From Ligustrum vulgare (Eukaryota; Streptophyta; Magnoliopsida; Lamiales; Oleaceae), in contig OY743190.1 of assembly GCA_963555705.1 (NCBI GenBank), forward strand, positions 11,879,501 through 11,943,500: DNA of 64,000 bases. Reading direction: 5' to 3'. Below are positions 2,086 to 62,262 of the stretch, piece after piece. The position numbers and the translations under genes were made by a program. The notes under the pieces were generated by a model that saw only the letters and a program-made list of their open reading frames with translations, was not told where the DNA came from and did no database searches. Position 1 is the stretch's first letter. Every line of letters starts with the position of its first letter.

Positions 2086-2096
2086 ATCTAATAACA

Positions 2097-2945: not shown

Positions 2946-3159
2946 CAAATAAAATTAACATTCTAGAATTCAATAAAGCTCCAATTTTTAAAAATTGAAT
3001 GTATACATCCACTAACACAAAATCAATAATCTAAAATTGAAATTCAAACTAAACTAATAAGATCATTTAAATCAACCAACATAATAAATAAAAATGATAA
3101 CTTCAATTATAATCTAACAAAATGAACAAAATAGTTTAACTTAAAATATGAAAAATTAC

Positions 3160-3420: not shown

Positions 3421-3522
3421 TGAACTGAAATTGTTGCGTGAAATGGTTGGAGCTGGAAACTTTTGGTGATGAAACCGGGAAAATGAGTGAAAATTTGGTG
3501 GAGGCACGAAAATAAAACCTAA

Positions 3523-3775
3523 GTATAGGCGTCGATTCTTTTTAAAAGGCGTCGGTTCTTTTTAATAAAACCTAAGTATAGGCGTCGGTTCTTAAAAAGA
3601 ACCGACGCATATAGGAGTTTTATAGGCGTCCGTTCTTATGCAAGAACCGACGCCCTTAAGCGGCCGGGTTAGTTGGCGTCGGTTGTTTCCTAACAACCGA
3701 CGCCATTATTCAATATTTATTTACAACTTTGCCATCGCTTTTTTACAGGCGTTGTTTTCCTTGAAAAACGACGCT
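3523..3775. repeat. CACTA subterminal inverted repeats (GGCGTCGGTT hairpins)
   Basis: Five or so copies of ggcgtcgrtt(c/g)tt occur in both orientations. They form hairpins such as gcgtcggttctt/aagaaccgacgc at about 3581-3608, another at 3626-3653, gcgtcggttgtt/aacaaccgacgc at 3676-3704, and a diverged gcgttgttttcc/gaaaaacgacgc at 3749-3773. Such subterminal arrays are the usual transposase-binding sites of CACTA elements; binding itself is inferred. Confidence 0.8.
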
Positions 3776-3820
3776 AATTTGATTTTTTTTTTTTTTGTTG
3801 ATATTTTTGTACTAGTGTAT

Positions 3821-4643
3821 ATTATATTGTTTAATCTATTTAATACTATGAATAAAACTCTGATAGAAATTTAATATATGTAAATGGCTGGATGTCCATT
3901 CAGATGATGATGCTGTTTTCTTATCATATTTGATTTCTTGATACAACTTTGCTACACTCAAAATAAGTGTGATAATGAGCTTACGTGATACAATTTTATT
4001 TTTTCACACATTCATCATTTTTTAAATCAATAAACTAACACTACCACATCACCTAATTGTTATCTTCATTGTCAATATAATTGTGCAAGTAGCAAAATTC
4101 ATCAACAAGCTAGCTGATAGCTAAAAAGCTAATTGGGAGGTGATAGTGGATAGCTGATATATATATATGCTAATTGATTGAAATAGGAGTGTTTGATAAA
4201 ATTAGCTGAAAAACTAGCTCAAAAATACAAAATAAAATAAAAGGAAGAAATATTTTAAATATTCAAATGGCATAGGGGTGTAATTTTAAAAAAATAAAGA
4301 GGCTAAAAATAGAATAAAAAATGAAAAGATCATGGAGCTTATTTGAAAAGCTTTCAAAAGAAGTTTTTGAAATAAGTTCAAGTTTCTCAAATAAGCTTAT
4401 CAACTAATCGGAGCTTATTTTAGTAGATGAAACTTATAAGCTCTCCAAATAAACTATAAACTAGCTTATTTGGCTTACCAAATGTATCCTAATGTATTTA
4501 ATATTTAGTCAAATAAACATGGTAGGCATGTAGGAAATTATTAAGGGGCGTTTGCACAAATACTAAACTTTTTGTATCATAATTGAAACTTACTTCATTT
4601 CAAATAGTCACTGAAAATTATTTAAATTTATTTTTTTAAAAAA
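3821..4643. other. Intergenic, with AGCTT-rich MITE-like stretch
   Basis: No gene is visible. From about 4090 to 4490 there are many agct/agctta words (tagctgatagct, gagcttattt, aagcttatcaacta, actagcttatttggctta), a pattern typical of old short inverted-repeat elements. I could not define exact termini or a target duplication. Confidence 0.35.
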
Positions 4644-24200: not shown

Positions 24201-25713
24201 GGGTTATTCCTGAAATATAAATAAATAAATGACATAAAATAAATAACAAATATTCTTGAATAAACAATTAAAATCCTACTTTTAGGATAGAAATAAGTGT
24301 ATAAAATACACTTATCATAAATCTAGATTGATAACTAAGGAATTTACTCAAAGAGAGGGGATATACTATAATGAGATGTTTTCACCTGTCATTAAGTATA
24401 AAACTATCAGGTTAGTCTTAGCCTTAGTTGTCCAATATAATTGGGAATTAGAGCAACTAGATGTTAAGACCTCTTTTCTTCATGGGGAATTGGATGAAGT
24501 GATTTACATGACTTAACCTCAAGGGTCTAAGGTGAAGGGTAAGTCGGAACTTGTGTGCTTGCTTAGAAAGTTCTTGTATGGCCTTAAGCAGAGTCCCAGA
24601 CAATGGTATAAGAAATTTGATGCTTAATGTTTAAAATTGATTTTAAAAGGAGTAAATATGATGCATGTTTTTATATAATAAATGTAAGATAGACTGTGAA
24701 GTTTATTTGTTGTTATATGTGGATGACATGTTGCTTGCTAGTTCTAGTAAAGTTGAAATTGCTAAAATGAAAAACCTTTTAAAATCGAAATTTGACATGA
24801 AAGACTTAGGAGAGACAAGAAAGATTCTTGGCATGGTTATTAAAAGGAATATGGCTGATAATAGACTGCTTATTAATCAAGAGTCTTATTTAGACAATGT
24901 GATAACCAAATTTGGCATGAAACTTGCTAAGTCTATCAATATACCATTAGCTGCACACATGAATTTTTCATCTGTACAATGTCCTAAAAATGAAGATGAA
25001 AAACATGAAATGAGTAATGTTCCATATGCTAATGACATTGGTTCTGTGATGTATTCTATGATTACCACTAGACCGGACCTTGCATATTTAGTTAATTTCC
25101 TGAGTAGGTTTATGTCTAATCCAGGTAAACATCATTAGGTTGCATTAAAATGGCTATTAAGATATCTAATGGGAACTCTTAAAAGGGGTTAGTGTTTGGA
25201 AGGAGAAGTGATAAGCTTGAGTTTAAGGGATATGTAGATTCTGACTTTGCAGGTGATAAAGATTAGATGAAATCTACCACTTCTTACTTTTTCTGTTTGG
25301 GTGATAATTGTATCACGTGGAAATCATAGTTGCAATCTATTGTTACACTCTCCAGAACTGAAGTTGAATATATTGCACTCACTGAAGTTGTAAAGGAATG
25401 CATTTGGTTAAAAGGCTTATAGTGTGAATTGAACTTCTTAAATGAAACTGCTATGAAATTTACTGATAGTCAAATTATTTTAACGTTATGTAAAAATCCT
25501 GTTTATCATAAAAGATCTAAGCACATTGAGGTAAAGTATCATTTAATTAGGGAGAAGTTATCTTCAGGTGAGTTTAAACTGCTTAAAATTGCAACTGATG
25601 ATAACTCTACGGATGTTGGGAAAAAAGTACTTGCGGTAGGAAATTCAACAAGTCTTTATCAATTCTTGCTATTGATAATTGTTAGTTGTTTTGCAGGTAC
25701 TAGGCTGAAGTGA
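21253..25713 (+). pseudogene. Ty1/copia polyprotein (integrase, reverse transcriptase, RNase H), multiply broken
   Basis: Block 1 (21253-21700) has the GAG-pre-integrase region (L-W-Y-K-R-M-G-H-I-G) and C-x2-C of the integrase zinc finger. After a frame change near 21700, block 2 (21690-21930) has the integrase core (V-D-D-Y-S-R-K-V-W-V-Y, then R-T-D-N-G). Block 3 (21985-22485) has the integrase C-terminal half, including G-C-A-A-Y-A-H. Block 4 (22640-22880 and 24318-24630) is the N-terminal reverse transcriptase, split by the nested LTR and a stop at 24514. Block 5 (24665-25138) has the catalytic Y-V-D-D and T-R-P-D-L-A-Y. Block 6 (25140-25713) is RNase H with several stops. The Y-S-R-K-V-W-V-Y and D-N-G-L-E-F-C-N wording is Tork-like. 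Confidence 0.88.
22881..24317 (-). mobile_element. Solo LTR in reverse orientation nested in copia reverse transcriptase
   Basis: On the minus strand it begins TGATAAGTGTATTTTATAC and ends ...TGCAGAGCGAACA, so TG...CA ends are present. The 5-bp flanks are taaag (22876-22880) and taaat (24318-24322), one mismatch, and removing the insert rejoins the reverse-transcriptase reading. The starting words resemble those of the LTR at 36504 (TGATAAGTACATTTTTTGTAC), which carries a TGGCGCC-type primer site, suggesting an Athila/Tat-like Ty3/gypsy source. It carries CG palindromes at 23861-23900. Confidence 0.8.
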
Positions 25714-44345: not shown

Positions 44346-44558
44346 TGTTATAAATAATATAAATATATGTGAATGACTAATTATCATTATACCTTTGTAA
44401 ACTTTATATTATTATGATTTTACCATTGATCACCCCTATAAATAAGGGCATATTGGTTCATTCTAAACACATCTAATGAGAAGATTTCTCTCAATTCTCT
44501 CCATCTCTCTATTCTTGTTATATAGAATTTGGTAGTTTTACAATACGTTATTTGCACA
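44346..44558 (+). repeat. 5' LTR of a Ty1/copia-type element (outer element of the nest)
   Basis: It begins TGTTATAAATAATATAAATAT and matches 62058-62262 over about 200 bp, including ataccattgatcacccctat, ttcattctaaacaca and tttggtagtttt. TATAAATA at 44437-44444 is a good TATA box, giving plus orientation. The 3' edge is approximate because both copies are diverged there. Confidence 0.82.
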
Positions 44559-45414
44559 AGTCTCTAGTCAATTGAGTAATATAACGAGAATATGTTCTAC
44601 AATTGCATTTAAATGATGAACCTCTGTACCAGAAACTTGATTATTATTAATTAACATTTCTTTTCCCAAATCTAGTATTTTTGGCATTGGAAAATATTTT
44701 ATATCTCGTGGATTTGAAAAATCATTTCTAAATCCATAGAAAAATCGGAGTAATTGTATAACCCGAAACTTTCAAATCAGATCTATGTCAAACCGTACAT
44801 CAAATCGACGATCGGAGATCAGATCTGGAACCACAACGACGAGACGAATCTCTGGAGCCGAGGCGTGTCATTGGTCGGAGCAACGGCGCGTGAGGACACG
44901 TGACAATTATTACAACGAAGATCTCAAAAGATAGTTTGTTCGTATTGACATTTCGAATTTTTCTATGGTCTTACGTTTTTGTTTGGTGCGGTTTGGACAT
45001 TTTCCGGTGGTCGAATGTGACGATTTTTTAAAAACTATTTTTCGGGCACTTTCGGTGGGATTTTGAACTTCGGACCAAAGTAAGTTTATTCTAAATTAAA
45101 TTTCAAATATGTTGACGGTTCGATTTATCCATATGAGCAATATCTTAAAATATGAACGATTTTGTCCTTGATAATACGTTAAAGTATATTAATCGTAAAT
45201 TAACAATTAATATGTAATCAATGACATAAATTAAAGATTTTAAATAAGGTACAAGTAATATAATTATTATCATACCTTGATGCATTAAGTTATTATGAAA
45301 TGAATTTATGCATTGACTAATTATGACTTATTTATCATAACAAATTGGACTATTATGAATACCTTGACTGGATTTGAAGATATGACTCTCTCACTTATGA
45401 AAGGTAATTGTTCC

Positions 45415-45725
45415 ATTATGTTGATACCACCTATATGGTTGGTTTTATCAGTTTTAAATATACATATTATGTTACCACCTATATGGTTGGTTTTATCAGT
45501 TTAAATATTACGTTATCACATATATGGTTGGTTCTACTGATTTTAAATATTTCTACTCTTATTGTTATTTGATATTTCGAAAAATGGTACTAGAAGTTAC
45601 CATTACCAAAATTTAGATAATATTTTATAAAATAATACCAGAAGTTACCATTACCAAAAGTTGTTAGATGTTGATGATAATATTTTATCAAACGGTACTA
45701 GAAGTTACCAATATCTGTATTGAAA
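45415..45725. repeat. Short tandem repeats in the copia interior
   Basis: Three copies of accacctatatggttggtttta-type units (45426-45545) are followed by three copies of gaagttaccattaccaaaa-type units (45590-45705). Similar (a)ccagaagt words recur at 59780-59960 and 61045-61180. No reading frame is preserved. Confidence 0.65.
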
Positions 45726-46022
45726 GGAAAGATGAAAATAAATTATCCAACAAGAAAAATGTTGATATATGATGGTAAGATAATATCACATGATAACACG
45801 GATATAGCTAATGCGAAAATAATCTCATCACTATTATGAGATGAATATTGTAAATATCTGGAAAAGTTATTGCACAAGCACTTATGTACTCCAAAAGAAG
45901 TAAAATTCATTAACTAAATATACTGAAAGGATATTATTATTGCTCTTGAAAAAGTACCCAAAAGTCATACTGAAACATTTCGAGAAAGGGGATAATGTAA
46001 AACACACAAAAACAAAAAAGGG

Positions 46023-46023
<1 letters not shown>

Positions 46024-46058
<35 letters not shown>
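46024..46058. repeat. (GT)n microsatellite
   Basis: About 16 GT units following a G-run, just downstream (in the gene direction) of the decayed LOG copy. Confidence 0.95.
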
Positions 46059-46059
<1 letters not shown>

Positions 46060-47034
46060 CATTTATAAAATCCTCAAAAAGTAGAGATGTGTTTCAATTG
46101 TAAGAATACTCTGTACTCTACCATTCCTAATCTTTTTGAGGTACAAAAGGTTAAGTTTAAACATTTATAAAATCCTCAAAATTGGATGTGTGTTTCAAGA
46201 GTAAGAATACTCCGTACTCTACCACCCCTAATCTATTATGAGGTTTACAAGATTAAGTTTACATTAGTCGGACTCCATTTTCGCTTGATTCACCTTCCTT
46301 GCGACCAATCTATCTTAGTTCGTGGTAGATTTTGTATTTGAATATATGATTGCAACTTATCCAGTAGTTCCTCGATAGTAGGATCAGAATAATGATCCTC
46401 CTAGAAAATAGAGAGATGAATCCCTATTCCACAATTTAATCCAGAAATGTTAGCAAACTGTAACACCCCAAGTTTAAGATCTAAAACCTAAGCGTGTTAA
46501 CTTCCATTCACATTAAATGCGGAAATAATCGTTTAAAACATTTAAACTTTTCATTTACTATTATAAAAATTTTACAAAAATTTCGACAGAGTCTCCTCTG
46601 TAAATTGGACATAGCCAACCTGTAGAGGGACATCAAAACCATTTTTAAAATACACATCGCAACTCATTCAATCCAAAACATCATCCAAACCATTACAATA
46701 AGTCCCAAACTCCTCAACAATATAATTTCAAGTAAATAAACCTTAGCAAATGAAATAAGAGGAAATTTAACCTCAATAATACATGAATTAAATAATAAAT
46801 AATGAGAAATTGAAATAAATTCTAATTTAACTTTATTTTAAAAGGGTTGAAGCGGGGATAGCCTGAGTCAGCTGTCGAGTGCTCTCCTCGGATCACCTAA
46901 CTTTCATCACCTGAAATGTTGGGGAGGGATTGGGGTGAGCTAAAGCTCAGTAAGTAAACTTTATGCACGTGATGCATGCTCATGACATGAAATTCCTTAA
47001 ACCATTCAAAGTAATTCCCCTCATTTACTTTACT

Positions 47035-47240
47035 TTTCAAGACATTCATACCTTCTAAACTTTCACTTAAACATTTCAAAAAAAACTTTAACTTCATTTA
47101 AAGACTTTCATTTCAAATCTTTCATTTCATTTCAAAACTTTCACTTCATTTCAAGACTTTCATTTCAAGACTTTCACTTCTTTTCAAGACTTTCATTTCA
47201 TTTCAAGACTTTCGTTTCAAGACTTTCACTTCATTTCTAT
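47035..47240. repeat. Tandem repeat of ttcatttcaagactttca units
   Basis: About ten short, slightly variable units of 17-22 bp with no coding content, inside the 3.1 kb LTR and 80 bp before the hairpin array. Confidence 0.8.
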
Positions 47241-47319
47241 CGTGAACTCAATTAGTGTATCTTCTAGCCAATTACAATGCAGTGGGCAATATCCCTTATT
47301 TAGGATCAGATTATCATTT

Positions 47320-47765
47320 TTCCACCGTATAGCGGTTTAATATTTGCCACCGCTAAGCGGTTTAGCAATCGTCACCGCAAAGCGTTTTAGTATTTGCCAC
47401 CGTCAACCGGATTAGCAATCGTCACCGCAAAGTGGTTTAATATTTGCCACCGCCAAGCGGTTTAGCAATCGTCACCGCAAAGCGGTTTAATATTTGCCAC
47501 CGCCAAGCGGTTTAGCAATCGTCACCGCAAAGCGGTTTAGTATTTGCCACCGTCAACCGGATTAGCAATCGTCACCGCAAAGCGGTTTAATATTTGCCAC
47601 CGCCGAGCGGTTAAGCAATCGTCACCGCAAAGCGGTTTAATATTTGTCACCGCCAAGCGGTTAAGCAATCGTCACCGCAAAGCGGTTTAATATTTGCCAC
47701 CGCCGAGCGGTTAAGCAATCGTCACCGCAAAGCGGTTTAATATTCACCACTGCAACAGCGGTTTA
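47320..47765. repeat. Hairpin tandem array (ACCGC-N3-GCGGT), 8-9 double units of about 49 bp
   Basis: Each double unit reads caccgcaaagcggtttaat, attgccaccgccaagcggt and a linker to the next. Both halves are short palindromes (ACCGCaaaGCGGT and ACCGCcaaGCGGT). Variants such as accgtcaaccggat and accgccgagcggt partly preserve pairing. The array shows the regularity of a satellite-like expansion inside an LTR. Confidence 0.9.
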
Positions 47766-50330
47766 ATTTGGGTATGCTGGTCTACAGCGCCCCATTTCTA
47801 TCTCACATCTTTCATGGCATAGAAGTACATTCATTTATTCTTAAAACTTGGGATACATACTCTTTGAGAACAATCTAACTTTCCACACTTTTCCTTTAAA
47901 ATCATTTGACTTCCCCAGTACTCAATGACAAATGCATGCTTGATGATGCAATTAACATAAAATATATGAATACTTGGGCAGTTTCCAATTTGAACAATAT
48001 ATTTTTATAAGAAGTAACGAAAGCATCGAAAACGAGCAATATGCAAAGTTGTCACTTGAGCACAGAAATTTCACATTAACTTTCAACTTTAATAAAAATA
48101 GGGGGAGTTTACTTACCTGTAGTCCTTAGTAGTTTGCTTAATATGCAGGTGGAAGTCTTGGTTGCCCGCGACGTCAATGTACCGTTTCTCCTAATTAATT
48201 TCCATCCATTAATAAAAGTATGGCTTTTAGTGAAAACTACCTTCAACACTCTTAACTGAGGTCGAGACTATCATGTAACTCATAATATAACAAACACATT
48301 TAACACCACATATAATATCCTATTCGAAGTAATACATTAAGTTCAAGGTATTTTGAAATCTCACTTATCAATTCCACAAATCAAAGCCAAGCATTACTTA
48401 TCAAAAATGATCTTGAACTAAAATTTTATAACTTTGAACATAATTTCAACTTAAACTAACTTGTTCTTAAAAGGTTAAAGTTTACTCTCCTATACCATTA
48501 TCCCAAAATTTCAAAATCACACATGTTTGTTTAAATAGTCATATACATATTCATGATCATATATACATACATTCACACCTCAAATTTGATATTATGGCAC
48601 ATAAATTAATCAAAAGTTCATGAGTCTCCAGTTTGAGAAATTCTATTCTATTTTCATCATAACAAAAGTCTGAATACATACCTATGCCCACATCCAAAAT
48701 TTATATATTTACCCACATCTATACCTACATAATAATATACACATTCATATACATCAATACTCACACACATAAACATCCCAAATCCCTAATTGATGGTAAA
48801 TTTCGAAAATCAACAAGAACTGAAATCTGAAAATTGTGAGGAATCACATATATACTTACTTAATTCCTATATACACCAATATATGCATAAAATTCAACAT
48901 ATAAAAATTGTGTATGTGTGTGTGAAAAAGAAACGTGTATGCGGTTTCGTGGGTGTGTAAAAACCGTGCAGCGGTTTCGCGTGGGAGAGGGGCGGAAAAG
49001 GGCTACCGTGAGTGGCGGTGGTGCGCCGACGGGTTGGCCGGTGGTGCGCCGACGGAACTGAGGGAGAGCGAGGCCGAGAGACAGGGAGCAAGGCGGAGAC
49101 CAAGAGAGAGGCGTCGGGTGAGAGATCGCGTAGGGAGTGAGAGAGAGCGTGAGTGCGAGATATGAGAGTGTGAGGTTTTTAGGTTAGGTTTAAATGTTTA
49201 ACTTTTGGAAAATTGCAATTCAGTCCCTCAACTCTCGTAAATTGGTAATTTAGATTCATAACTTTCAAATAAAATTCCAAAGTGTCACCAAACTTTTCCC
49301 AACTTCAATTTAATGCAATTTAGGCAACTACTACTCAAATACAATAGAAATGGAAAGTAACAATTAAAATAAACAATTAGACATAGAATTGTACGTAAAC
49401 AATTTATAAACATTTTAATTGGTACATTGATCGAGACGGCGTCCAAGTCCTTCCACTGCAAGATAATTCCAATTATAGACGTTAAAAATCATAAAATTAT
49501 AATTTATAATAACATTCACAAGAATATTACGTGAAATTTAGAATTGCAAGTAAAAATGAAAAGCGGTCTTACACAAACCATCAAAGAAATTATTAACATT
49601 TAAAAGTTCAATAGGCTTGCTATGGAGATCCAACTGAGCCCAAGAGGTAATATTAAAGATTTGTTCTAAAGTACCAAAACCTCCAGGCAGGGCCATGAAG
49701 ATATCATAACCATATAACATGCAAGTTATTCATTCATGGATAGATAATGTATGTACTTCATGCCCTCGTATTTTGCCCGCAATATCTATCAAAGGAATAT
49801 GTATAATGCCTATGACCTTCGATTCCTTTGTTTGAGCAGATTGAGAAACGCAACCCATCAATCCACTGCTACCCCCTTCGTATACTAGATTGATACCTCT
49901 CTCTCCCAACTTCTTTCCTAGATGCACTGCTGCTTCTAGATATCTAAATCCTTTCCCGATTCTTGATCCATAAAATACACAGATAGTTTTGATTTTTCGA
50001 ATTTTTGATTCTTCAATCTTTTAAGAGTACAAGGAAGGAAAACTTTCAAGAAAAATGTTATTTTGGAATGCATTAAACTGCTAAATTATTTGGCTTTTTA
50101 GACCTAAAAATCTTCACTATTTTACTGCTCGTCTTTTGAAAAAGTTGCTACTTAATTTTGATTAAATGACACTACTTTTGATTATATCTATGATAACATA
50201 TTTAATACTCTATAATGGACACTCTTTCGGTAGTCTCTCAATGACAGACTATTAATATGCGAAAAAATGAAAAATGAAATACTTTATTAAAATATATATG
50301 TATACATATATACACTATACTGATTTACCT

Positions 50331-50866
50331 TGTATCAATACTGAATAGTCGAAACATCCATATTTGTTACAGACTGGCAAACTGGATCTTTTACTATTAT
50401 ATTCTTGAGACTATAACGGTCTTTATCATCTTTGAATTGAGCCTATAAAGATAGTAGCTCATGCTCCACATACCCACAAAGGTGGGTCTCAATAGTCAAT
50501 CAGATATCATCCAAAGACTCCTTATTCAGTCCACCCTTAATGAAATATATTTTATCATCTCGATTTACGAATGTATTTCCTACTGATTTACAATGGATAT
50601 CACATGTCCATCGAGTACATTTGTAACAACATTTAATCTTTTTGCTCTTCACTTCTTTGCAAAAGTACTCTTACCTAAGTTAGGCATAAATCTGTTAATT
50701 CACCAGCTAATCAAACTTTTGCTTCTATCAACCAACAAACATCTTCTGGGATACCTTGATCCATCAGCAGCCTCAACCTTTCAATTCGAACTCAGTAAAT
50801 CTTTTTCAAAACATTTACTGGAAGATTAGAATAATATTTACGAATATTTGATAATATAACATCCAT
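50331..50866 (-). pseudogene. Viral NABP-like gene, copy 2 (decayed)
   Basis: Homologue of the open gene at 56193-56744. The ATG (50864-50866) aligns with residue 17 of the open frame, which supports that Met as the real start. Stops and small indels interrupt the frame, and the terminal TAA has become CAA. The cluster C-Y-K-C-T-R-W-T-C-D-I-H-C is kept with all four Cys and their exact spacing, while flanking residues changed. It lies 314 bp upstream of LOG copy 2 in the same direction, the same order as in the open cassette. Confidence 0.75.
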
Positions 50867-51299
50867 TTTCACGGATCAAAACTTCTTTCCATACGATCTA
50901 TTTAAATGTATTATTGAACACATAAAGAGCGGAGGCTCTGCATGACATTGATTCCACCAAGAAAAATGGGAATAAAATATTGAAAAATTGGGAACAAAAA
51001 TTATTTTCTTGGGATATCGTGTAGCGACCAAGAATTTTTACGCGATTAATAATTATTTTAATAGAAAATCGTGTCGCTACTATTTCACCCATTTTTATTA
51101 AGTTAACGCCACGACGTATTCGTATAGCCAAGTCAAGAAATAATCGAGATCGTTCGATTTTAAATTAAATTCCGAATTTCTAAAAATATCTCCATTCTCT
51201 TGATTTAAAGTATATTAAGTCTAAGTACTTAATTCAATGTTATCCCAATATTTATTTATACAAAAATTACTTTTATTATTTAAATTAAGAAAATATATG

Positions 51300-51800
51300 C
51301 AAGCATGAGAGGTTCCATTATATATAATAATTATGAGAATCTTAATTTAATAAATATGGAAAAGTATATAAATGGTTGATAGATTCCATTATATGTAATC
51401 ATGAAGAGCATAATATTTGTATAAATATGGAAAAGTATATGAATGAATTATATACTCCATTATATATAATCATGAAGAGCATAATATTTGTATAAATATG
51501 GAAAAGTATATGAATGATTGATAAGACTCCATTATATGTAATCATGAAGAGCATAATATTTGTATAAATATGGAAAAGTATATGAATGAATTATATACTC
51601 CATTATATATAATCATGAAGAGCATAATATTTGTATAAATATGGAAAAGTATATGAATGATTGATAAGACTCCATTATATGTAATCATGAAGAGCATAAT
51701 ATTTGTATAAATATGGAAAAGTATATGAATGATTTATATACTCCATTATATATAATCATGAAGAGCATATTATTTGTATAAATATGGAAAAGTATATGAA
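51300..51800. repeat. Tandem array A in the LTR (about 7 units of about 69 bp)
   Basis: The unit is roughly actccattatat(g/a)taatcatgaagagcataatatttgtataaatatggaaaagtatatgaatga, with alternating tgattgataag and attatat junctions, which implies a higher-order two-unit period. The same array occurs at 57960-58460 in the other LTR. Confidence 0.9.
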
Positions 51801-52024
51801 TGGTGCTTTACTTTAAGAAAATGATGTGTTAAAATTAATAGAATTGAATGATTATGTTTACAATATGCCAACTTTATACATCTATTTAAACCCATCTCTT
51901 TTACACACAACTCTACACATATACACTTATTTCCAATCTCTTGACAAAATCCACAAGTAAGAGAAATTCAAGGTGGTCAAGAAAGTTTTGGTCCATTTAC
52001 TACTACACTTCATTTTAATCTTTT

Positions 52025-52450
52025 AAAAGGTAAGTATATCTTATGTTTTTATGAAAAGTAAGTATGTTTTTATGAAAGGTAAATACACCTTATGTTTTTA
52101 TGAAAAGTAAGTATGTTTTTATGAAAGGTAAATACACCTTATGTTTTTATGAAAAGTAAGTATGTTTTTATGACAAGTAAGTATATCTTATGTTTTTTAT
52201 GAAAAGTAAGTATGTTTTTATGAAAGGTAAATACACCTTATGTTTTTATGAAAAGTAAGTATGTTTTTATGACAAGTAAGTATATCTTATGTTTTTATGA
52301 AAAGTAAGTATGTTTTTATGAAAAGTAAATACACCTTATGTTTTTATGAAAAGTAAGTATGTTTTTATGACAAGTAAGTATACCTTATGTTTTTATGAAA
52401 AGTAAGTATGTTTTTATGACAAGTAAGTATATCTTATGTTTTTATGAAAA
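52025..52450. repeat. Tandem array B in the LTR (about 30-bp units)
   Basis: Units of gtaagtatgtttttatga(a/c)aa alternate with gtaaatacaccttatgtttt or gtaagtatatcttatgtttt variants. Matching array at 58685-59105. Each unit begins with a perfect plant 5' splice donor consensus (aaaa/ggtaagtat-like), which is curious but unproven functionally. Confidence 0.85.
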
Positions 52451-52964
52451 TGTTTGGATCATTGCTATGAAATCAATCTCACAAGATTGTTATGGGTTCC
52501 ATATGATATGTTTATGATTATGCTAAGGGGACCGGAGTTTAGTAGCGCTACACATAAGAATTCTTGCCATTTAAGTTCGGTAAAATTCTTGTGTCTCCCT
52601 ATGTTTATGAATATTTCAATCCTATCCTATGTTATGATGAAAATGATCCATATGCTTTCAAAAGAAAATTTATGCTTGGTATACTTACTGGGATTTTATA
52701 AATCTCACTCCACGATATTTACCATTTTCAGATAATTGAAGGTTCGAGGCGGTCAACATGGAAGTGGCAAAAGTGGTTAAGATTGATGAGATAATTATGT
52801 TGAACTTTATGTAAGAAAATTATGTTCTATTTTTATTCACAAATAAAATTATGGGATTCTAATTATTCTTTTGAATAATTTTACATTACTATTTAAGTCT
52901 CGATAATATGATATGAGTCACTTTTTGTGGCACTCGAATGGTCGAGAATTCGGGTCGTCACAGT

Positions 52965-52976
52965 TGGTATCAGAGC
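52965..52976 (+). other. Primer-binding site of the young element
   Basis: TGGTATCAGAGC, complementary to plant initiator Met tRNA, two bases after the 5' LTR end. Confidence 0.9.
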
Positions 52977-55000
52977 AAAGAGTTTTAAAAACGATTCTGT
53001 AGATTTTTGAAATTTTATTTCTTTAAAAAAAAAAAAAAAAATCACTATTCATGTGAACAGTAAAACGACGTGCTATTCATGATGAACAGTGAACGAAATC
53101 ACTATTCATTATAAAAAAAAAAAGTTGAATTTTCACATGTCAAGTATGGTTATGATTTTGAAAAGCATGATGAAATTTGATGTGCGAATTTCAAGGACAA
53201 AATTCATTTTAAGTAAGGGAGTTTGTAATGTCCTGAAAATTTTATGGAATATAATTAGTTAGTGATATGATGTTTATATTGATGTCTTTGATAAATTTCT
53301 AGAAGTTCGGGGACTAAAGGAAAAATAAGATTTGACGATAAATTTTATTTGGGTTAAGTTATTAATTATTGATGGGGAGATAATTACTATATCGATATTG
53401 GATTTGTTTTGAAGACTGTGATTAATTAGGAATTATGATTCAAGAAAATGTTGATTTGGATACAACCACATTAAATTATTGTTGATTAAAGGAAAATAAG
53501 ATTATATGAAATATTTTAACTCATCACTCTACTATGTCACTCTCCACGTATTGACTCCTCGAACCAGGTATGTTATATGCTTTGCAAGTCATTTACGATT
53601 TTATTAAGACATGTTAAGTATGAAATCTTCATATGTTATGAATCTTTATGTGTTACACATAATATACATGTCAAGTATGATATAAATTGATAGAAGACTC
53701 AATTTTTTTATTCTTTTCAATGTAGAATCATGAGACAGAGAGGATATTTATATGAATTTTGGTGCATATTAAGCTTAGTAAGATTGACTCAATTAGAAAT
53801 TAAGTTGGGTTGTAACTTTTGCCCAAAATATATGGAATAATATATTAAACAAACAAAATTGATAATGAATTCGTACAATAATTTATCCCTTTATCACTAC
53901 CTTTGTGTAAAAACAAGGGAAAAACTGTGGATGGTTATTAGTACTTCCTCTTCAAGTTTCAATTTTCGGTTCAATAATTTATCCCTTTATCACTACCTTT
54001 GCTTAAAAGCAAGGAAAAACTGTGGATGATTATTGGTACCACTCTTCAAGTTTCAATTCTGAAAAAAAAAAAAAAAAAAAAAAAAATTCAGAAAGAAAAG
54101 AAAGAAAGAGAACGGGTGTTGAGCATAATGGGAATAATATGACTTAAGAATGATTTTCAAAATAATTGTTGTCCTCGAGTTTAGAAATGATAAACCTTAA
54201 ATGGACTTTGCATAATTGATTTTAGACATGGCATTAAGTATGAGAAGTCAACAGAAATGATTAGAAATATGTTCAGATTATCTATCATTTAGATTTAATG
54301 AGAAATAGCGAGCCAATTTTATGAATTTTTATGAGATGTTAAGATTATAAGTGATATGATTTTAATGAGACTTTTATGAGAAGCATTATGAAGTTAGAGA
54401 TTTAAAGATTTGGTTATTGGGAATTAAGTAATGGATATTATGTTGAGTAAGTGAATTATGCCTCTATATTGAAGAGAAATTTATTATGAACTTTGGCCTT
54501 GTGATTAAATTTTGGGAATATGATTTATGACTTATAAATATAAGTATGAGTAATCTTTTGAGCCAATTAAGGTATTGAAGGAAGTGATATTGTGATATTG
54601 ACGACTATGATTTGAAATTTCTATGTTGAGGAATTATGAATTGATTTTCTGGAATATTTTTTTTATGATATTGAAGTTTGATGAAATTGTGGTCAATTTT
54701 TAGATCGTTGTGATCAAATGTGGAATTATTTATTATTGTGAGTTATGAAGTATGCTTACGGTTTGAATAAGTCCAAATTTCAAAGGAAACTCTGCTTAGA
54801 ATTTTATCGTTTGGAATTAAGAGCATAGTATGGTATGCAATCACTAAGAGAATTGAGGTTAGACATGCAAATTCATTTACATCACAAACGAGATTTAGTA
54901 GATGATAACAGAGATATTTATTATTTTCTCGTAAGGAGAACACACAAGAGTCACATTGGAAAGAAATACATGAAACACGCAAAATCAAAAGAAAGCAACA
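52977..55000 (+). other. Non-coding interior of the young element with an older gypsy boundary
   Basis: No gag or pol is readable. At about 53190-53232 a second 3'-end signature appears: tttcaaggacaaaattcatt, then taagggagtt and TGTAATGTCCTG, which looks like the junction of another gypsy interior with its LTR. 53883-54060 is a diverged tandem pair (ataatttatccctttatcac x2), followed by an A-run at 54061-54086. The rest is AT-rich without conserved frames. Confidence 0.5.
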
Positions 55001-55024
55001 TGGGAAATTCCTCAAATTGAGAGA

Positions 55025-55240
55025 TGTGTTTCCGGAGTAGCCGTATCCTACCACCTCTGACCTTTTGAGGAAATAAAGAAACCTTCAAAGAGGTGTGTTT
55101 CGAGAGTAAGAATACTCCGTAATCTACCACCTGGAACCTTTGAGGTACACACAAGATTTAAACATTAAGGAAATCCTAGGAAATTAGAGGGGTGTCTCGA
55201 GAGTAAGAATACTCCGTACTCTACCCCCACCTATTCTAAG
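55025..55240 (-). repeat. Triplicated motif downstream of LOG (gtaagaatactccgtactc)
   Basis: Three copies (about 55035, 55100 and 55200) of a gtgttt(c)gagagtaagaatactccgtactctacc-type block follow the LOG stop codon (reading on the minus strand). Copy 2 of the cassette has two such blocks at about 46090-46215. Their conservation downstream of both genes suggests they are part of the cassette. Confidence 0.75.
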
Positions 55241-55242
55241 AT

Positions 55243-55896
55243 TCATAAAGTTAAGTTTACATTAACCGGACTCCATTTTCGCTTGATTCCCCTTCCTTGC
55301 GACCAATCTATCTTAACCCCTGCTGGATCTTGTATTGAGATATATGACTGCAGCTTATCCAGTAGTTCATCAATAGTAGGAGTAGAAATAAGGAGCCTTC
55401 TGGAAAATGGAGAGATGAATCCCTGTTCCACAGCATAATCAAGAAAGGTTAACAAGCCATCAAAGAAATTGTTAACATTCAGAAGCCCAATAGGCTTAGT
55501 ATGGAGATCTAGTTGAGCCCACGAGGTAATGTTAAAGATTTCTTCTAAGGTACCAAAACCTCCGGGCAGGGCTATAAAGGCATCAGAACCATATAGCATA
55601 CAAGTTATGCGTTCATGGATGGATAATGTTTGAACTTCATGCCCTCGTGTTTTGCCTGCAACATCTACCAAAGGGACAGGTATGACACCGATTACTTTTG
55701 ATTTCTCTGCAAGAGCAGATTGGGAAACACAACCCATTAGACCACTGCTACCACCCCCATACACAAGAGTGATACCTTTTTCCCCCAGTTTCTTTCCAAG
55801 ATCTACGGCCGCTTCTAGATAACTGAAGCCTTTCCCCACTTTTGATCCACAAAATATACAAATAGTTTTGATCTGTCGAAGTTTTGGTGCTTCCAT
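55243..55896 (-). CDS. LOG: LOG-like cytokinin riboside 5'-monophosphate phosphoribohydrolase, intronless, inside an LTR element
   Basis: 217 codons, full length for the LOG family, which releases active cytokinin base from its riboside monophosphate in the cytosol. Visible motifs are F-C-G-S (15-18), L-V-Y-G-G-G-S-S-G-L-M-G (44-55), H-E-R (94-96) and P-G-G-F-G-T-L-E-E (111-119), the family signature with its catalytic Glu. The plant family has an Arg-Lys pair after the HxR position; here Arg96 is kept but the next residue is Ile, so substrate binding may be altered. Plant LOG genes have several introns and this one has none, so it arose by reverse transcription or came from a non-plant source. 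The start ATG (55894-55896) is the first in frame and aligns with the lost ATG of copy 2. It lies 296 bp after the NABP-like gene in the same direction and is antisense to the host element. Expression is unknown. Confidence 0.9.
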   Translation of the reverse strand: MEAPKLRQIKTICIFCGSKVGKGFSYLEAAVDLGKKLGEKGITLVYGGGSSGLMGCVSQSALAEKSKVIGVIPVPLVDVAGKTRGHEVQTLSIHERITCMLYGSDAFIALPGGFGTLEEIFNITSWAQLDLHTKPIGLLNVNNFFDGLLTFLDYAVEQGFISPFSRRLLISTPTIDELLDKLQSYISIQDPAGVKIDWSQGRGIKRKWSPVNVNLTL

Positions 55897-56192
55897 CTTT
55901 GATAGTATAGAAGAGAAAACTTACGAAGAAGATGTGATTTTGGGATGCCTGAACTATGAAATATGTTTGGCTATTTAAAGCCGAAAAAATTTACTGTTTT
56001 TGATTGATTATGAAAAAGTAAAGATTTACTTTTGTCAAAATCGGCCAACTTTTGACTGTTTTACCAAAGATATCACCTTTCGGTGATTTATTTCCAGCTT
56101 TATCAAAACTCGAGAAAGGAAAATATATTTTATTTCCAAAACGCGTGAAAGAAAACAGCAAAATATTTTAAATGTGTATCAAGAGATTTACC

Positions 56193-56744
56193 TTATATCA
56201 TTGTTGAACTGCCAGAAGCCTCATTTTGTAAAACAGACTGGCAAACAGGATCTTTTGCTATTATATTTTGGAGACTATAACGATTTTTGTCCTCGTTAAA
56301 CTGAGCGTATAAGGAGAGAAGTTCACGTTGCACATAACCACTTGGGTGCGTCTCAAGAGTCAGTCGAATATCATCCAAAGACTCCTTACTCAGTCCACCC
56401 TTTATGAATTTGATTTTATCATCCCGATTAGTAGAAGAATATCCTACTATTTTGCAACGAGTATCACAGTTCCAACGAGCACATTTGTAGCAACCATTCA
56501 GCCTTTTTGCTCTTCGTTTCTTTGCGAAGGTGCTTTTGCCTAAACCAGGCATGTGCTTTGGAAATGTCATAGGTAATTCACCAGATAGTCGAACCTTTGC
56601 TTCGATCAACCAGCGAACATCTTCTGAAACACCATGAGCCATCAGCAACCTCAATCTTTCGAGTCTTATTCGATAAATTTTCCTCAGATCATTCATTGGA
56701 AGACTGGAATAATACTTGCGAATGTTTGTAAGAATGATATCCAT
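56193..56744 (-). CDS. Putative viral nucleic-acid-binding-protein-like (carlavirus NABP type) gene with Cys cluster
   Basis: The open frame begins at 56792, but the Met at 56744 is preferred because copy 2 keeps that ATG and has a stop upstream of it. From that Met the product is 183 residues. It has a helical, Arg/Leu-rich N-terminal half, then G-K-S-T-F-A followed by the basic patch K-K-R-R-A-K-R (residues 91-97 of the long frame) and directly a cluster C-x2-C-x4-C-x3-C (Cys101, 104, 109, 113), then a charged C-terminal half. A basic arginine patch leading straight into a small Cys cluster is the hallmark of the 11-14 kDa nucleic-acid-binding proteins of carlaviruses and relatives, which bind RNA/DNA and affect silencing and transcription. 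The Cys spacing is tighter and the protein longer than usual, so the match is a proposal. The alternative is an unclassified small zinc-finger protein. Confidence 0.55.
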   Translation of the reverse strand: MDIILTNIRKYYSSLPMNDLRKIYRIRLERLRLLMAHGVSEDVRWLIEAKVRLSGELPMTFPKHMPGLGKSTFAKKRRAKRLNGCYKCARWNCDTRCKIVGYSSTNRDDKIKFIKGGLSKESLDDIRLTLETHPSGYVQRELLSLYAQFNEDKNRYSLQNIIAKDPVCQSVLQNEASGSSTMI

Positions 56745-57439
56745 GTTTTTGATGGATCTAACCTCTTCCCAGCATGAACTATTTAAAAGCATTAAGGATC
56801 GGAGGGAATCCGCGTGATATTGATTCCAGCAAGAAAGCGCGGAATAGAATAATGGAAAAGAGGGAACAAGAGTTTATACGCCGTTTACTTTCTTGATAAA
56901 AGGAAGATTTGATGATGACGGGATTTGAGATATGGAATATTTTCTTGGATTTTGGGTACTGATATTTTGATATAATAATCAAGGTATAGAAATAATACGG
57001 GGATACGTGAAAGTGAAATAAGGACTGTATTGAATCAGGATTAATAAGTTTGTGCAAGTGAAAGGAATACCTTACGGGAAATGTTATGATATTTGAGTTA
57101 AGAATTTTAATTATTTGGGAGATATTTGTTTATTGAATTTTGCAGAAATTTTGGGTTACAAATATTGGAAAGATAAACTGATGATTATGTTGATATGTGA
57201 ATAACATGTTTGGGTATATTACATAGAGAATATTCAGGTAATCGTTTTAATTATTTTGGGATATTTGGTGATAAGAAGAAATGACAAATTATTATGGTAT
57301 GATATGTTAGTAAAGATTTATTGAAATTTTAGAGATATTAATACGAATATTTGAGGTCACATGATACGATGATAAATGACAAGTTACATGAATACTACAA
57401 GATATGATGAAATATCACATACGATTGGGAATTTTCATT

Positions 57440-57660
57440 TTGATTCAGAAGAATTTATGAGTAGACATATGTCTATTATTGATAGAAAAGTCCATGTCTT
57501 AAGAAAACAAATTGATGCATTTAGTCAAAGTCCAGTGGGTTAAATATGGTTGGGTTAAATATGGTAGCGATGATGCTACATAAGAAGAAGAAGAAGAGAT
57601 TCTGATTAAGTGTTCAGAAATCATAAGATCAAGTAAGATTAATTTCGAGGACGAAATTAT
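57440..57660 (+). pseudogene. Chromodomain-region remnant at the end of a Ty3/gypsy pol
   Basis: Between about 57440 and 57645 the plus strand reads, with stops and a short duplication, I-I-D-R-K-V-H-V-L-R, then (W)-V-K-Y-G-S-D-D-A-T, E-E-E-E, and ends S-K-I-N-F-E-D-E. That is the order of the C-terminal chromodomain region of chromovirus integrases (I-L-D-R-K ... V-L-W ... A-T-W-E). It identifies the parental lineage of the element as a chromovirus. It is the only pol trace I can read. Confidence 0.65.
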
Positions 57661-57675
57661 TTTAAGGGGGTAAGT
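57660..57675 (+). other. Polypurine tract of the young element
   Basis: attttaaggggg (57659-57670) followed by taagtt and then TGTAGCG of the 3' LTR, preceded by tttcgaggacgaaatt, a wording typical just upstream of Ty3/gypsy 3' LTRs in plants. Confidence 0.85.
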
Positions 57676-57676
57676 T

Positions 57677-59618
57677 TGTAGCGACCAAGAATTTTTACGC
57701 GATTAATAATTATTTTAATAGAAAATCGTGTCGCTACTATTTCACCCATTTTTATTAAGTTAACGCCACGACGTATTCGTATAGCCAAGTCAAGAAATAA
57801 TCGAGATCGTTCGATTTTAAATTAAATTCCGAATTTCTAAAAATATCTCCATTCTCTTGATTTAAAGTATATTAAGTCTAAGTACTTAATTCAATGTTAT
57901 CCCAATATTTATTTATACAAAAATTACTTTTATTATTTAAATTAAGAAAATATATGCAAGCATGAGAGGTTCCATTATATATAATAATTATGAGAATCTT
58001 AATTTAATAAATATGGAAAAGTATATAAAAGGTTGATAGATTCCATTATATGTAATCATGAAGAGCATAATATTTGTATAAATATGGAAAAGTATATGAA
58101 TGAATTATATACTCCATTATATATAATCATGAAGAGCATAATATTTGTATAAATATGGAAAAGTATATGAATGATTGATAAGACTCCATTATATGTAATC
58201 ATGAAGAGCATAATATTTGTATAAATATGGAAAAGTATATGAATGAATTATATACTCCATTATATATAATCATGAAGAGCATAATATTTGTATAAATATG
58301 GAAAAGTATATGAATGATTGATAAGACTCCATTATATGTAATCATGAAGAGCATAATATTTGTATAAATATGGAAAAGTATATGAATGATTTATATACTC
58401 CATTATATATAATCATGAAGAGCATATTATTTGTATAAATATGGAAAAGTATATGAATGGTGCTTTACTTTAAGAAAAGGATGTGTTAAAATTAATAGAA
58501 TTGAATGATTATGTTTACAATATGCCAACTTTATACATCTATTTAAACCCATCTCTTTTACACACAACTCTACACATATACACTTATTTCCAATCTCTTG
58601 ACAAAATCCACAAGTAAGAGAAATTCAAGGTGGTCAAGAAAGTTTTGGTCCATTTACTACTACACTTCATTTTAATCTTTTAAAAGGTAAGTATATCTTA
58701 TGTTTTTATGAAAAGTAAGTATGTTTTTATGAAAGGTAAATACACCTTATGTTTTTATGAAAAGTAAGTATGTTTTTATGAAAGGTAAATACACCTTATG
58801 TTTTTATGAAAAGTAAGTATGTTTTTATGACAAGTAAGTATATCTTATGTTTTTATGAAAAGTAAGTATGTTTTTATGAAAGGTAAATACACCTTATGTT
58901 TTTATGAAAAGTAAGTATGTTTTTATGACAAGTAAGTATATCTTATGTTTTTATGAAAAGTAAGTATGTTTTTATGAAAAGTAAATACACCTTATGTTTT
59001 TATGAAAAGTAAGTATGTTTTTATGACAAGTAAGTATACCTTATGTTTTTATGAAAAGTAAGTATGTTTTTATGACAAGTAAGTATATCTTATGTTTTTA
59101 TGAAAATGTTTGGATCATTGCTATGAAATCAATCTCACAAGATTGTTATGGGTTCCATATGATATGTTTATGATTATGCTAAGGGGACCGGAGTTTAGTA
59201 GCGCTACACATAAGAATTCTTGCCATTTAAGTTCGGTAAAATTCTTGTGTCTCCCTATGTTTATGAATATTTCAATCCTATCCTATGTTATGATGAAAAT
59301 GATCCATATGCTTTCAAAAGAAAATTTATGCTTGGTATACTTACTGGGATTTTATAAATCTCACTCCACGATATTTACCATTTTCAGATAATTGAAGGTT
59401 CGAGGCGGTCAACATGGAAGTGGCAAAAGTGGTTAAGATTGATGAGATAATTATGTTGAACTTTATGTAAGAAAATTATGTTCTATTTTTATTCACAAAT
59501 AAAATTATGGGATTCTAATTATTATTTTGAATAATTTTACATTACTATTTAAGTCTCGATAATATGATATGAGTCACTTTTTGTGGCACTCGAATGGTCG
59601 AGAATTTGGGTCGTCACA
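57677..59618 (+). repeat. 3' LTR of the young Ty3/gypsy element (1942 bp)
   Basis: Near-identical to 51020-52962. Differences I can see: t/a near 58029, t/g near 58480, one T missing in a T-run near 58851, c/a near 59523 and c/t at about 59608. Both tandem arrays are preserved in register. Confidence 0.95.
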
Positions 59619-59623
59619 TATCG

Positions 59624-60580
59624 TTCCTTACCTTTTTCGATATAAGAGAAGACTTGATGGCAAGATTTGAAACATGAAATATTTTCTTGGATATCGTACC
59701 TGATTTTTTAATCCAATAAAAGTAATTAATGTATACTGATTTGTACTATAGAGAAATTCGTACAAGGAAAATATATATTGTATTGAACTAGAAGTTCATA
59801 TGTACAAGTGAAATAAATATTGAAATGAACCAGAAGTTCATACGTACAAGTGAAATATATATTGTATTGAACCAGAATGTTCATTGATACTGTATTGAAC
59901 CGAATGTTCATACATAGAAGTGAAATAAAATCATATTGAACCAGAAGTTTTATAATAACGGTTATATCATCAAAAGCCTCAAATTCTTTTCTATGTGAAC
60001 AAATTGAATAGAAATTGTTTCTCATACAACTATATCATGTATATGTCAATATGATGAAACAAGGATTAGCTCGTGAAGCTTTATAATTTATAAGAAGCGA
60101 TATATACACTCCATCAAAACGCACTTAGATATATAATTGAAATTATATCCCTAATTAGAAATGAAATATTGCGGCATTTTTAGCCAATTGATATAATATA
60201 AGATTTGCGAATATTATGGGGGAAAACATGCCTGAATCACAATTATGTCTGAAGCATAATGACGATCGATTCCAAAAACAAATATCTCTTGAATAATTGA
60301 GATGATCCCTTTGAGGCTAAATACTCATGGTGAGTAAAATGGACATAGTTAAATGATAAGAGATTCAGGTACCTGATGATGGAAAAGATAAAGAGATCTC
60401 TATATGTTATGTATATGTTGAGATGAATTGGAATCGACAAATAAGTCGACTAAATACTTTACACAACTCTCTTGTGAAAATGTGGTTGATGAAATATAAA
60501 ATACTTTGGCCAAATATAAAATCTCAATGTAGGGATTATTGTTAAAGGACCTGAAGTCCAAACACTTAAATGTGTAAATC
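59624..60580 (+). other. Copia interior beyond the nested element, non-coding
   Basis: 59624-59760 is the upstream flank of cassette copy 2: it aligns with 56885-57060 of copy 1 (shared gatttga...gatatggaatattttcttgga-like words). 59760-59960 contains four repeats of ttgaaccagaagttcatac / gtacaagtgaaata. The rest has no readable frame. Confidence 0.55.
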
Positions 60581-60584
60581 CAGC

Positions 60585-60830
60585 AGTTATTTGTACAAAT
60601 GAAAAATGTTACATAGTCGTAAAAGACAACTCGTTACGCGCGAAATTTTTCAAAGAACTGTCATAATATATGGTGGATGAGACTATAATCAAAATCATTA
60701 GCTTGAGCTCTTTGATATACCAATGAGTGAGATCAAAATGTATAATTCTTATCTCGGTACTTTGGGAGTATTCTTTGATGTACCAGTTGATCACAATACG
60801 TCGAGATTTCAAGTAAAATGATTATAGATT
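60585..60830 (+). pseudogene. Ty1/copia RNase H remnant
   Basis: The segment tttgtacaaatgaaaaatgt and onward reads, with stops, C-x-x-Q-M-K-N, then a K-T-T-R-Y-A-R-N-F-like run. This corresponds to the C-terminal RNase H region of copia elements (A-Q-M-K ... R-T-K-H-I ... F-F). Heavily decayed, short, and supported mainly by position before the 3' motifs and LTR. Confidence 0.45.
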
Positions 60831-61339
60831 ATATTTGAAATTGATATCTATTTCAATGATTTATTATACTTATGCAAATTAGAAATTATGGTTTATGAGA
60901 TGCAAGAACATACATGTATAATTATTGAAAAACTCAATATACCCAAAATAGTATCATTTCAGAATGATACAAATAACCCCATGATATAATATGTTGAAAT
61001 TGGAGTATACTATTATTGTAAATTATATTTGATATCTATGAAATTGATTATTTACCAGAAGTGAATTCGAAAATGAATATCTAATTATTCACCAGAAGTG
61101 AATTCTAGAAATTGAAATTGGATAATGTTTAATTATTCACCAGAAATGAATTCTAAATTCGATTATTCACCAGAAGTGAATCAATTTTAAGATTTTAAAA
61201 ATGCAATCGATCAATTAGTTAAACATTGCTTGATATAGCATGTTATGAGCTATGAACAATTTATACAAAGTTCATCATAAAAGATATGTTTTCGAGATTG
61301 AATCAATATACTTGTGATATTCCATGAGTGGAATAAATG

Positions 61340-62057
61340 CGCTCTGCACTATTTTTTTTTTCTTAGCTGGGGTTTTGTTCCACACGGTTTTCTTAACAAG
61401 GCTTTTGACGAGGCAGTACTTATGACGTATTAATGAGAATAATGTACTTCGCTAAAGTTTTGTCCCACAGAGTTTTCCTAACAAGGTTTTCAAGGCATTA
61501 TCACAGCTACCTATGAGCTATAATTTAGCAACACATTTTTGTACTAGAATGATATCAACAAATGAAGAAAAGCATAGACATCTTATGAAGAATGTTATGA
61601 TATCGGTTACACACAAGGTGATTTTTATATATACATATTCCAGATGAAAGATGATATCAATGTTCAAGAAGTTCCTGAATACTCGATTGCACACTTCAGG
61701 AGGAGAATCATGATGTACTCTTTTTCCTTCATCCAGGTTTTATCTTATTAGATTTTCCTGACAAGGTTTTAACAAGGCAGTGGTTGTACTCTTTTTCCTT
61801 GGTTCAGATTTTATCCTACTAGGTTTTACTGACAAGGTTTTAACGAGACAGTACTTCAGAACTTCAAGATTCAGTACAAGATTTGTTCTACTTATCATTT
61901 GATGTCATTTCGAACATTAGATTCAATAATTTACGATGACCAACATCAGGAGGAGCAGCTGTACTCTTTTTCCTTCACTCAGATTTTATCTCACTGTGTT
62001 TTCTTAGCAAGTTTTTAACGAGGTAGACAATTGTGTAATAGGTCATTCAATGGAGAG
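61340..62057 (+). repeat. Copia 3' motif series (ggttttatcccac...aacgaggcagt) and purine tract
   Basis: Five diverged copies of tttttcctt...ggttttatctcact...gttttcctaacaaggtttt...acgaggcagt begin near 61355, 61440, 61718, 61780 and 61960. This motif series stands between RNase H and the 3' LTR in several plant copia lineages. It ends in aatggagag at 62050-62057, the probable polypurine tract. Confidence 0.75.
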
Positions 62058-62262
62058 TGTTATAAATAATATAAATATACGTGAATGACCAATTACCATT
62101 ATACCCTTGTAAACTTTATGTTATTACGATTGTGCCATTGATCACCCCTATAAATAGGGGCCCATTGATTCATTCTAAATACACCTGAAGAATTTCTCTC
62201 ATTCTCTCTACCTCTATTTCTTGTTCTTTTAGTTTTTGGTAGTTTTCCAACAATTGTGTGCA
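62058..62262 (+). repeat. 3' LTR of the outer copia element
   Basis: TGTTATAAATAATATAAATAT ... tttggtagttttcca..., matching 44346-44558. Contains the TATA box ctataaatag (62149-62158). Divergence from the 5' copy is clearly greater than between the young element's LTRs. Confidence 0.8.

Follow-up and report, generated by a model that had tools for sequence, protein, structure and literature searches.

A long terminal repeat (LTR) retrotransposon of 8,599 bp in Ligustrum vulgare (Lamiales; Oleaceae) lacks gag-pol and instead carries two genes antisense to itself, a LONELY GUY (LOG)-like gene and a gene for a viral-type nucleic-acid-binding protein (NABP). It occupies positions 51020-59618 of a 64,000-nt stretch, hereafter the window (GCA_963555705.1, contig OY743190.1:11,879,501-11,943,500, forward; position 1 is the first letter of the stretch). 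The same gene pair sits in a second kind of LTR carrier, the family of the window element numbers thousands of copies in the genome, and both genes are under purifying selection, with a ratio of nonsynonymous to synonymous substitution rates (dN/dS) of about 0.1-0.4. We lean towards regarding the element as a non-autonomous retrotransposon whose two-gene accessory cargo would act in trans, against silencing and for cytokinin activation.

A young element with two antisense genes

The preliminary description of this DNA reported a retrotransposon with intact LTRs, a TATCG target-site duplication (TSD), a primer-binding site (PBS) and a polypurine tract (PPT) but no gag-pol, and each of these features is present (Table 1), as are the TG..CA ends that complete the structural definition of an LTR retrotransposon. 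The two LTRs differ by four substitutions and one internal 1-nt indel, which corresponds to an age of ~0.08-0.15 million years if 1.3e-8 and 7e-9 substitutions per site per year are taken as rates. The gag-pol coding capacity that defines an autonomous element is lacking: beyond LOG and NABP there is no open reading frame (ORF) of at least 120 aa, shorter frames having had no profile scan, and the pol of a Ty3-type plant contig (L001, see below) found no match in the window. We take the PBS to be of the initiator-Met type, and the LTR, PBS and PPT presumably resemble those of a chromovirus (Tekay-like), with no pol present for classing. A relic of a second PPT and LTR start suggests a mosaic origin of this carrier. 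A PPT-like stretch in the opposite orientation (CGAGGACAACAATTATTTT at 54176, minus strand) is possibly a chance occurrence, and Rfam and tRNA scans had a low yield.

Table 1. Features of the young element and of the older carrier that surrounds it, in window positions
Feature	Positions	Strand	Remarks
5' LTR, young element	51020-52962	+	1943 bp; 99.7% identity to 3' LTR
3' LTR, young element	57677-59618	+	1942 bp
TSD TATCG, 5 bp	51015-51019 (left), 59619-59623 (right)		
PBS TGGTATCAGAGC	52965-52976	+	exact match
PPT AAGGGGG	57664-57670	+	same junction in 14/15 sampled genome copies
Relic of second PPT and LTR start, inside young element	53187-53260	+	72% match to 57641-57715
Putatively transferred cassette (LOG, NABP, flanks)	55009-57063	-	79.5% identity to 1908-3910 of the L042 6.3-kb carrier
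LOG-like ORF, 217 aa, tail KRKWSPVNVNLTL	55243-55896	-	PF03641 E 2e-33; PDB 2a33 E 2.3e-57
TATA-like TTTAAATAG upstream of LOG	55972-55980	-	TTTAAA in 21/22 aligned copies (eye count)
NABP ORF, 183 aa, C-x2-C-x4-C-x3-C	56193-56744	-	PF05515 and PF01623 above Pfam cut-offs
TATA-like TTTAAATAG upstream of NABP	56779-56787	-	TTTAAATA in 21/22 aligned copies (eye count; absent in L044)
5' LTR and primer-site region, old carrier (6.3-kb type)	44346-44664	+	74.9% to L042 element 1-325
3' LTR start, old carrier	62058-62165	+	85% to L042 LTR 1-104
Degenerate LOG, old carrier	49574-50017 (5' part), 46248-46459 (3' part)	-	
Degenerate NABP, old carrier	50350-50905	-	
Solo LTR-like insertion splitting old LOG, TSD CAAAC	46459-49573		read by eye

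The LOG-like ORF is intact, intronless and full-length, as had been claimed; it contains the PGGxGTxxE signature, and both profile and alignments assign it to the LOG family. Its sequence predicts a cytokinin-nucleotide phosphoribohydrolase. In most other aligned copies the TATA-like site upstream takes the form TTTAAAAAG, and the old outer copy lacks it. To characterize the C-terminal tail, we surveyed the 120 best of 6,876 relatives of the window LOG against 120 controls from a search with Arabidopsis LOG3, which comprise LOG1/LOG3-type proteins only. An LxLxL motif lies among the final 10 residues, preceded by basic ones, in 93/120 relatives versus 0/120 controls; a minority at most of the 120 relatives were shown to lie in elements. 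EAR motifs recruit co-repressors, and tails of this kind may do the same. The window copy itself ends in VNVNLTL, a weakened form. With length filters applied and every second control taken, FastTree separated 116 of the 120 relatives plus the window LOG from 48 of the 120 controls as two groups with support 100, placing the window LOG outside the LOG1/LOG3-type clade.

The NABP frame opens at 56792 (199 aa), and the ATG at 56744, which is the start in most aligned relatives, gives the 183-aa product. Its proposed viral type is borne out by matches to PF05515 (Viral_NABP, E 2.1e-7) and PF01623 (Carla_C4, E 9.2e-5), and all 25 members of alignment A1 match both profiles at E <=0.01. The profile match spans a basic patch and the adjoining four-Cys finger, whose spacing is almost invariant across 90 aligned proteins.

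Thousands of copies and a second carrier

The exact 52-bp LTR start occurs at 3,875 places (1,953 + 1,922) in the 1.385-Gb genome, a count that covers both LTRs of elements plus any solo LTRs, and an exact LOG 50-mer occurs at 3,246 (1,659 + 1,587); the reversed-pattern control gave 0 for each. A LOG search returned at least 150 places (9,448 candidates), and all of the 150 listed are full-length, 99-100% identical and free of stops; 139 of them share one common lowest score and lie on contigs C1-C4. The 15 copies scored for the PPT-LTR junction in Table 1 came from this search. Among 100 LTR starts listed in C1:1-39.6 Mb, 40 same-strand neighbors are spaced 5-8 kb apart (median 6,596), compared to 2 on opposite strands, and the LOG 50-mer lies inside 35 of the 40 same-strand pairs, antisense in every one. 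This interval contains 71 LOG 50-mers, so 36 fall outside exact LTR pairs. It also contains two runs of four LTR starts (C1:1133697-1153045 and C1:8382792-8403560, 6.4 and 6.9 kb apart), which are tandem LTR-internal-LTR arrays of the window type.

We then took every fifth of 100 listed 50-mers (20 copies, all on C1), a sampling by exact LOG stretch that favors well-kept copies. LOG is open in 15 of these, NABP in 19 and both in 15, and 19/20 align to the window over >1 kb at 92.6-99.5%. By extrapolation, the genome may contain some 2,400 intact LOG frames.

A search with PF05515 found at least 150 places in the same genome (7,081 first-look candidates) and none in 14 control genomes. Every fourth of the first 77 places was sampled, yielding 20 loci; their ranking by NABP profile score biases the sample towards good NABP frames (NABP open in 18, LOG in 10, both in 8). 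LOG lies downstream of NABP on the same strand at all 20, and 17 are located between LTR pairs, the exceptions being L034, L039 and L043. At twelve loci the LTR pair is bordered by an exact 5-bp TSD; the elements there are 6.26-6.69 kb long with 80.9-100% LTR identity, share nearly the same PBS and PPT, and carry the cassette antisense. Because the script that called TSDs tried a range of offsets for TG..CA and matching 5-mers, chance may account for a few of these TSDs (e.g., AAAAA at L046). At four further loci (L036, L037, L048 and L050) an LTR pair was found without a TSD. The remaining locus, L049, is of the window's own kind and forms with L054 another window-type copy (TSD TATTT). No other frame >186 aa is present in the 16 carriers, in which the cassette is the sole recognizable gene content. 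We take the PBS (CGTTATCAGCACGAG) and PPT of these 6.3-kb carriers to resemble Ty1/copia, with no long non-cargo frame for classing.

Outside the young element, the 6.3-kb element L042 aligns piecewise along 44346-62165, which places an old carrier in the window, interrupted once by a solo LTR-like insertion and once by the young element. The gene pair first described at 51020-59618 stands, with the addition of a degenerate second pair outside it, in this older LTR element. Two LTR starts, at 44134 (minus) and 62804 (plus), were rejected as ends of the outer element because no PPT adjoins them; they are separate insertions related to the window LTR. Near the 3' end of the old carrier, a 68-nt motif is repeated three times (61714-62027) and is matched in the L042 element too. 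Farther away, at 21253-25138, frames resemble pieces of a copia-type pol in their motifs, as judged by eye, with a TGGTATCAGAGC site at 20755.

Relatedness between the young element and L042 is confined to a 2.05-kb stretch, the cassette of Table 1. As this is the only part common to the two LTR elements, it moved from one kind into the other, and its being the shared part points to transfer from the 6.3-kb carrier, or a relative of it, into the 8.6-kb family. The module would thus be older than the 8.6-kb carrier, into which about 2 kb would have moved before that family spread to thousands of copies. The earlier proposal that LOG and NABP had traveled together and been re-mobilized is strongly supported by the same pair in two different carriers. 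A single host locus captured once, which the preliminary description had raised as a possibility, does not agree, as regards locus, with the thousands of copies, and a single-capture artefact is rejected by the many genome copies and the two carriers.

The pair also recurs in other plants. There are 413 NABP relatives, with Orobanche, Populus, Acer and Xanthoceras represented among the 120 listed, and four Orobanche gene models (P0018, P0020, P0022 and P0023) join NABP and then LOG domains. Among entries under 1 Mb from the best 120 of each list (107 NABP, 65 LOG), 7 NABP/LOG pairs have equal record length and source, versus a mean of 1.2 (max 4) in 120 shifted controls; for records of at least 1,500 nt the numbers are 4 versus a mean of 0.18 (max 2). 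Three of the seven (873, 905 and 1018 nt) were discarded as chance, being too short for both genes. Co-divergence of the two genes was not significant over 6 independent pairs (Mantel r 0.36, p 0.18); adding 3 more Orobanche models gave r 0.77 and p 0.0002, but the added models are near copies.

An NABP in yet another carrier is found on L001 (DAIEQH010000041.1), a contig of 3.3 kb deposited as part of a Candidatus Nomurabacteria metagenome-assembled genome but most likely plant DNA and a probable contamination. Here Ty3-type integrase domains are followed directly by an NABP in sense and then by a PPT-like stretch; we take the retroelement to be Athila-like. This NABP scores above the PF05515 cut-off and just under that of PF01623 (20.5 vs 20.9 bits), and no LOG-like frame is among the frames listed in the following 1 kb.

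Selection and alternative explanations

dN/dS between copies, a check suggested at the outset, is well below 1 for both genes. Comparing the inner and outer copies gave 0.19 for LOG (bootstrap 0.12-0.32, 195 codons) and 0.15 for NABP (bootstrap 0.09-0.24, 172 codons), with stop codons skipped (LOG 2, NABP 5) and frame-break stretches omitted (LOG 149-170; NABP before 17 and 74-78). Between open copies with dS >0.05, dN/dS is below 1 in 118/118 NABP pairs (median 0.24) and 44/44 LOG pairs (median 0.18); pairs with lower dS (35 NABP, 11 LOG) stand outside this ratio. Pooled intact, equal-length copies of the window's own family gave 0.21 for LOG and 0.41 for NABP against the window.

We hypothesize that the cargo is transcribed from the opposite strand, probably by two TATA promoters of its own, and that the element is copied by the enzymes of another element. 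By analogy with flexivirus cysteine-rich proteins (CRPs), the NABP may enter the nucleus, bind nucleic acid and weaken host silencing or alter transcription. LOG may free active cytokinin from its nucleotide and shift the cell towards a dividing, permissive state, and the intact EAR-like tail of its relatives may recruit TOPLESS-type co-repressors. Both proteins would then serve the element in trans.

Several observations weigh against such a trans-acting cargo. Only 8 of the 20 NABP-ranked loci retain open frames for both genes, and the VNVNLTL tail of the window LOG is not a strict LxLxL (EAR) motif. A young burst from few source copies partly explains the low dN/dS, so that selection for the element is not separated from selection by the host, and a trans-acting benefit shared by broken copies implies weaker selection per copy. 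No autonomous partner was found, although only one candidate was looked at, with no wider search; this candidate, L070, was rejected as merely an LTR end with its flank. Finally, fold searches with two NABP structure models (predicted local distance difference test scores of 58.5 and 72.5) gave no significant viral or PDB match, so it is sequence-profile matches across ~60 residues that tie the NABP to viral proteins. In the viral library, the weaker model ranked a flexivirus RNA silencing suppressor second (E 0.36) and a nucleic-acid-binding protein third (E 1.1); for the better model 0/6 matches were flexivirus, and PDB gave one meaningless match.

We entertain only tentatively, and think rather unlikely, a broader version in which a portable module, pairing a LOG whose tail resembles a nuclear signal and a repressor motif with a CRP-type nucleic-acid-binding protein, was passed among unrelated angiosperm LTR lineages as a kit against the host, acting on cytokinin and silencing so that even carriers without gag-pol reach copy numbers in the thousands. 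In this version, retroelement genes of this sort may be the ancestors of flexivirus CRPs, and not their descendants.

Passive cargo, in which a LOG retrocopy and an old NABP sequence were caught and amplified without function, their open frames reflecting youth, appears improbable. The family is indeed young, with four substitutions per LTR pair, no full-length open LOG remains in 5/20 copies of the 50-mer sample and 10/20 of the NABP-ranked sample, and related sequences inflate the apparent conservation. Even so, dN/dS stays far below 1 at dS 0.4-1.0 between the two carriers, TATA-like sites are kept upstream of both genes, and the pair recurs in other plants, with the NABP in another carrier as well.

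Quite improbable, too, is a cassette that began in an as yet undescribed plant DNA virus or pararetrovirus carrying NABP and LOG and reached LTR elements when these later captured its endogenous copies. The NABP matches viral families, and the compact pair with one TATA-like site per gene would suit such a source. However, two IMG/VR scans and phage records contained no NABP (the scans with NABP, LOG and pol returned 24 distant LOG loci at 23-39% identity), LTR pairs flank 17/20 loci in the plant's own genome, and on L001 the NABP directly follows a Ty3-type integrase in sense, ahead of a PPT-like stretch. We also rejected an origin from florendovirus ORF2: it is a 45-58 kDa protein without known relatives in the accessible text of PMC4241990, and the terms sought were absent from that of PMC13308828.

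A host benefit, with the plant itself exploiting its numerous LOG copies and selection at host level maintaining the genes, is very doubtful. Despite the strong purifying selection on LOG (0.07-0.16 vs the window copy), near-identical copies in the thousands, bearing LTRs and TSDs, reflect element amplification and not a host gene family, broken copies are common, and NABP is not known to have a host role.

If the trans-acting cargo we favor is real, transposons manipulate plant growth hormone and silencing through a common gene kit, and mobile DNA can load a single plant genome with additional hormone-activation ORFs by the thousand. The antisense ORFs in plant LTR elements, puzzling so far, would gain a concrete and testable function, the accessory genes of retroelements and RNA viruses might prove to be connected, and annotators counting LOG genes in plant genomes would have reason for caution.

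Comparison with known systems

LTR elements with extra genes, LOG included, are known already. An abstract by Steinbauerova reportedly describes two Athila-like elements with similarity to LOGL4. The preliminary description knew of no element with the pair, and we likewise found no report of LOG with NABP in titles or abstract starts, the subscription literature being mostly uncovered; as far as searched, neither the pair nor its presence in two carriers nor the scale has been described. LOG alone in LTR elements, on the other hand, is already in print: a LOG (YgdH) domain occurs in retrotransposon consensuses of two Citrus species and Populus trichocarpa (PMC9289625, which cites Steinbauerova 2011, Genetica 139:1543, for LOG in plant LTR retrotransposons). 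These elements resemble ours in having a LOG-family gene as an extra domain, but the accessible text of that paper says nothing of an NABP linked to the gene, of a tail resembling an EAR motif, of carriers that are non-autonomous or of copy numbers in the thousands.

The element LOGs share the fold family and the GGG and PGGxGTxxE motifs with the plant LONELY GUY enzymes LOG1/LOG3; unlike these, they form a separate tree group together with their relatives (support 100) and have no introns, and the basic plus LxLxL tail is seen in 93/120 relatives against 0/120 controls.

Flexivirus NABPs/CRPs (carla-, allexi- and mandarivirus), as covered in the accessible text of PMC12172455, have the same basic patch beside a four-Cys finger and the same profiles, PF05515 and PF01623. 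Viral CRPs are silencing suppressors, and p12 of chrysanthemum virus B (CVB) is a transcription factor causing hyperplasia, according to the same text. In contrast to the flexivirus proteins, the plant retroelement NABPs are ~182 aa long, their conservation extending N- and C-terminally past the part that matches viral proteins, and have an LTR-element carrier wherever a carrier was seen. A betaflexivirus replicase-like sequence is reported from cucumber in the accessible text of PMC3136472.

Antisense additional ORFs of plant LTR retrotransposons have been reviewed for Grande, RIRE2, Retand and PvRetro13 (PMC7264820). Like the window element, these are LTR elements that harbor one or more antisense genes; one of the reviewed genes has a promoter of its own, and a regulatory role has been suggested. 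According to the accessible text their ORFs lack clear relatives in databases, whereas both genes of the window element can be assigned to known families and the element has no gag-pol.

VANC of the VANDAL DNA transposons is a transposon-borne anti-silencing accessory protein and thus alike by analogy; judging from the accessible text of PMC5735166 and PMC10398659, it belongs to another element class and another protein family, and anti-silencing by the window NABP is presumed.

The large non-autonomous LTR elements known as large retrotransposon derivatives (LARDs) have been described as non-coding. The window element is like them in being an LTR element without gag-pol, and unlike them in encoding two kept proteins.

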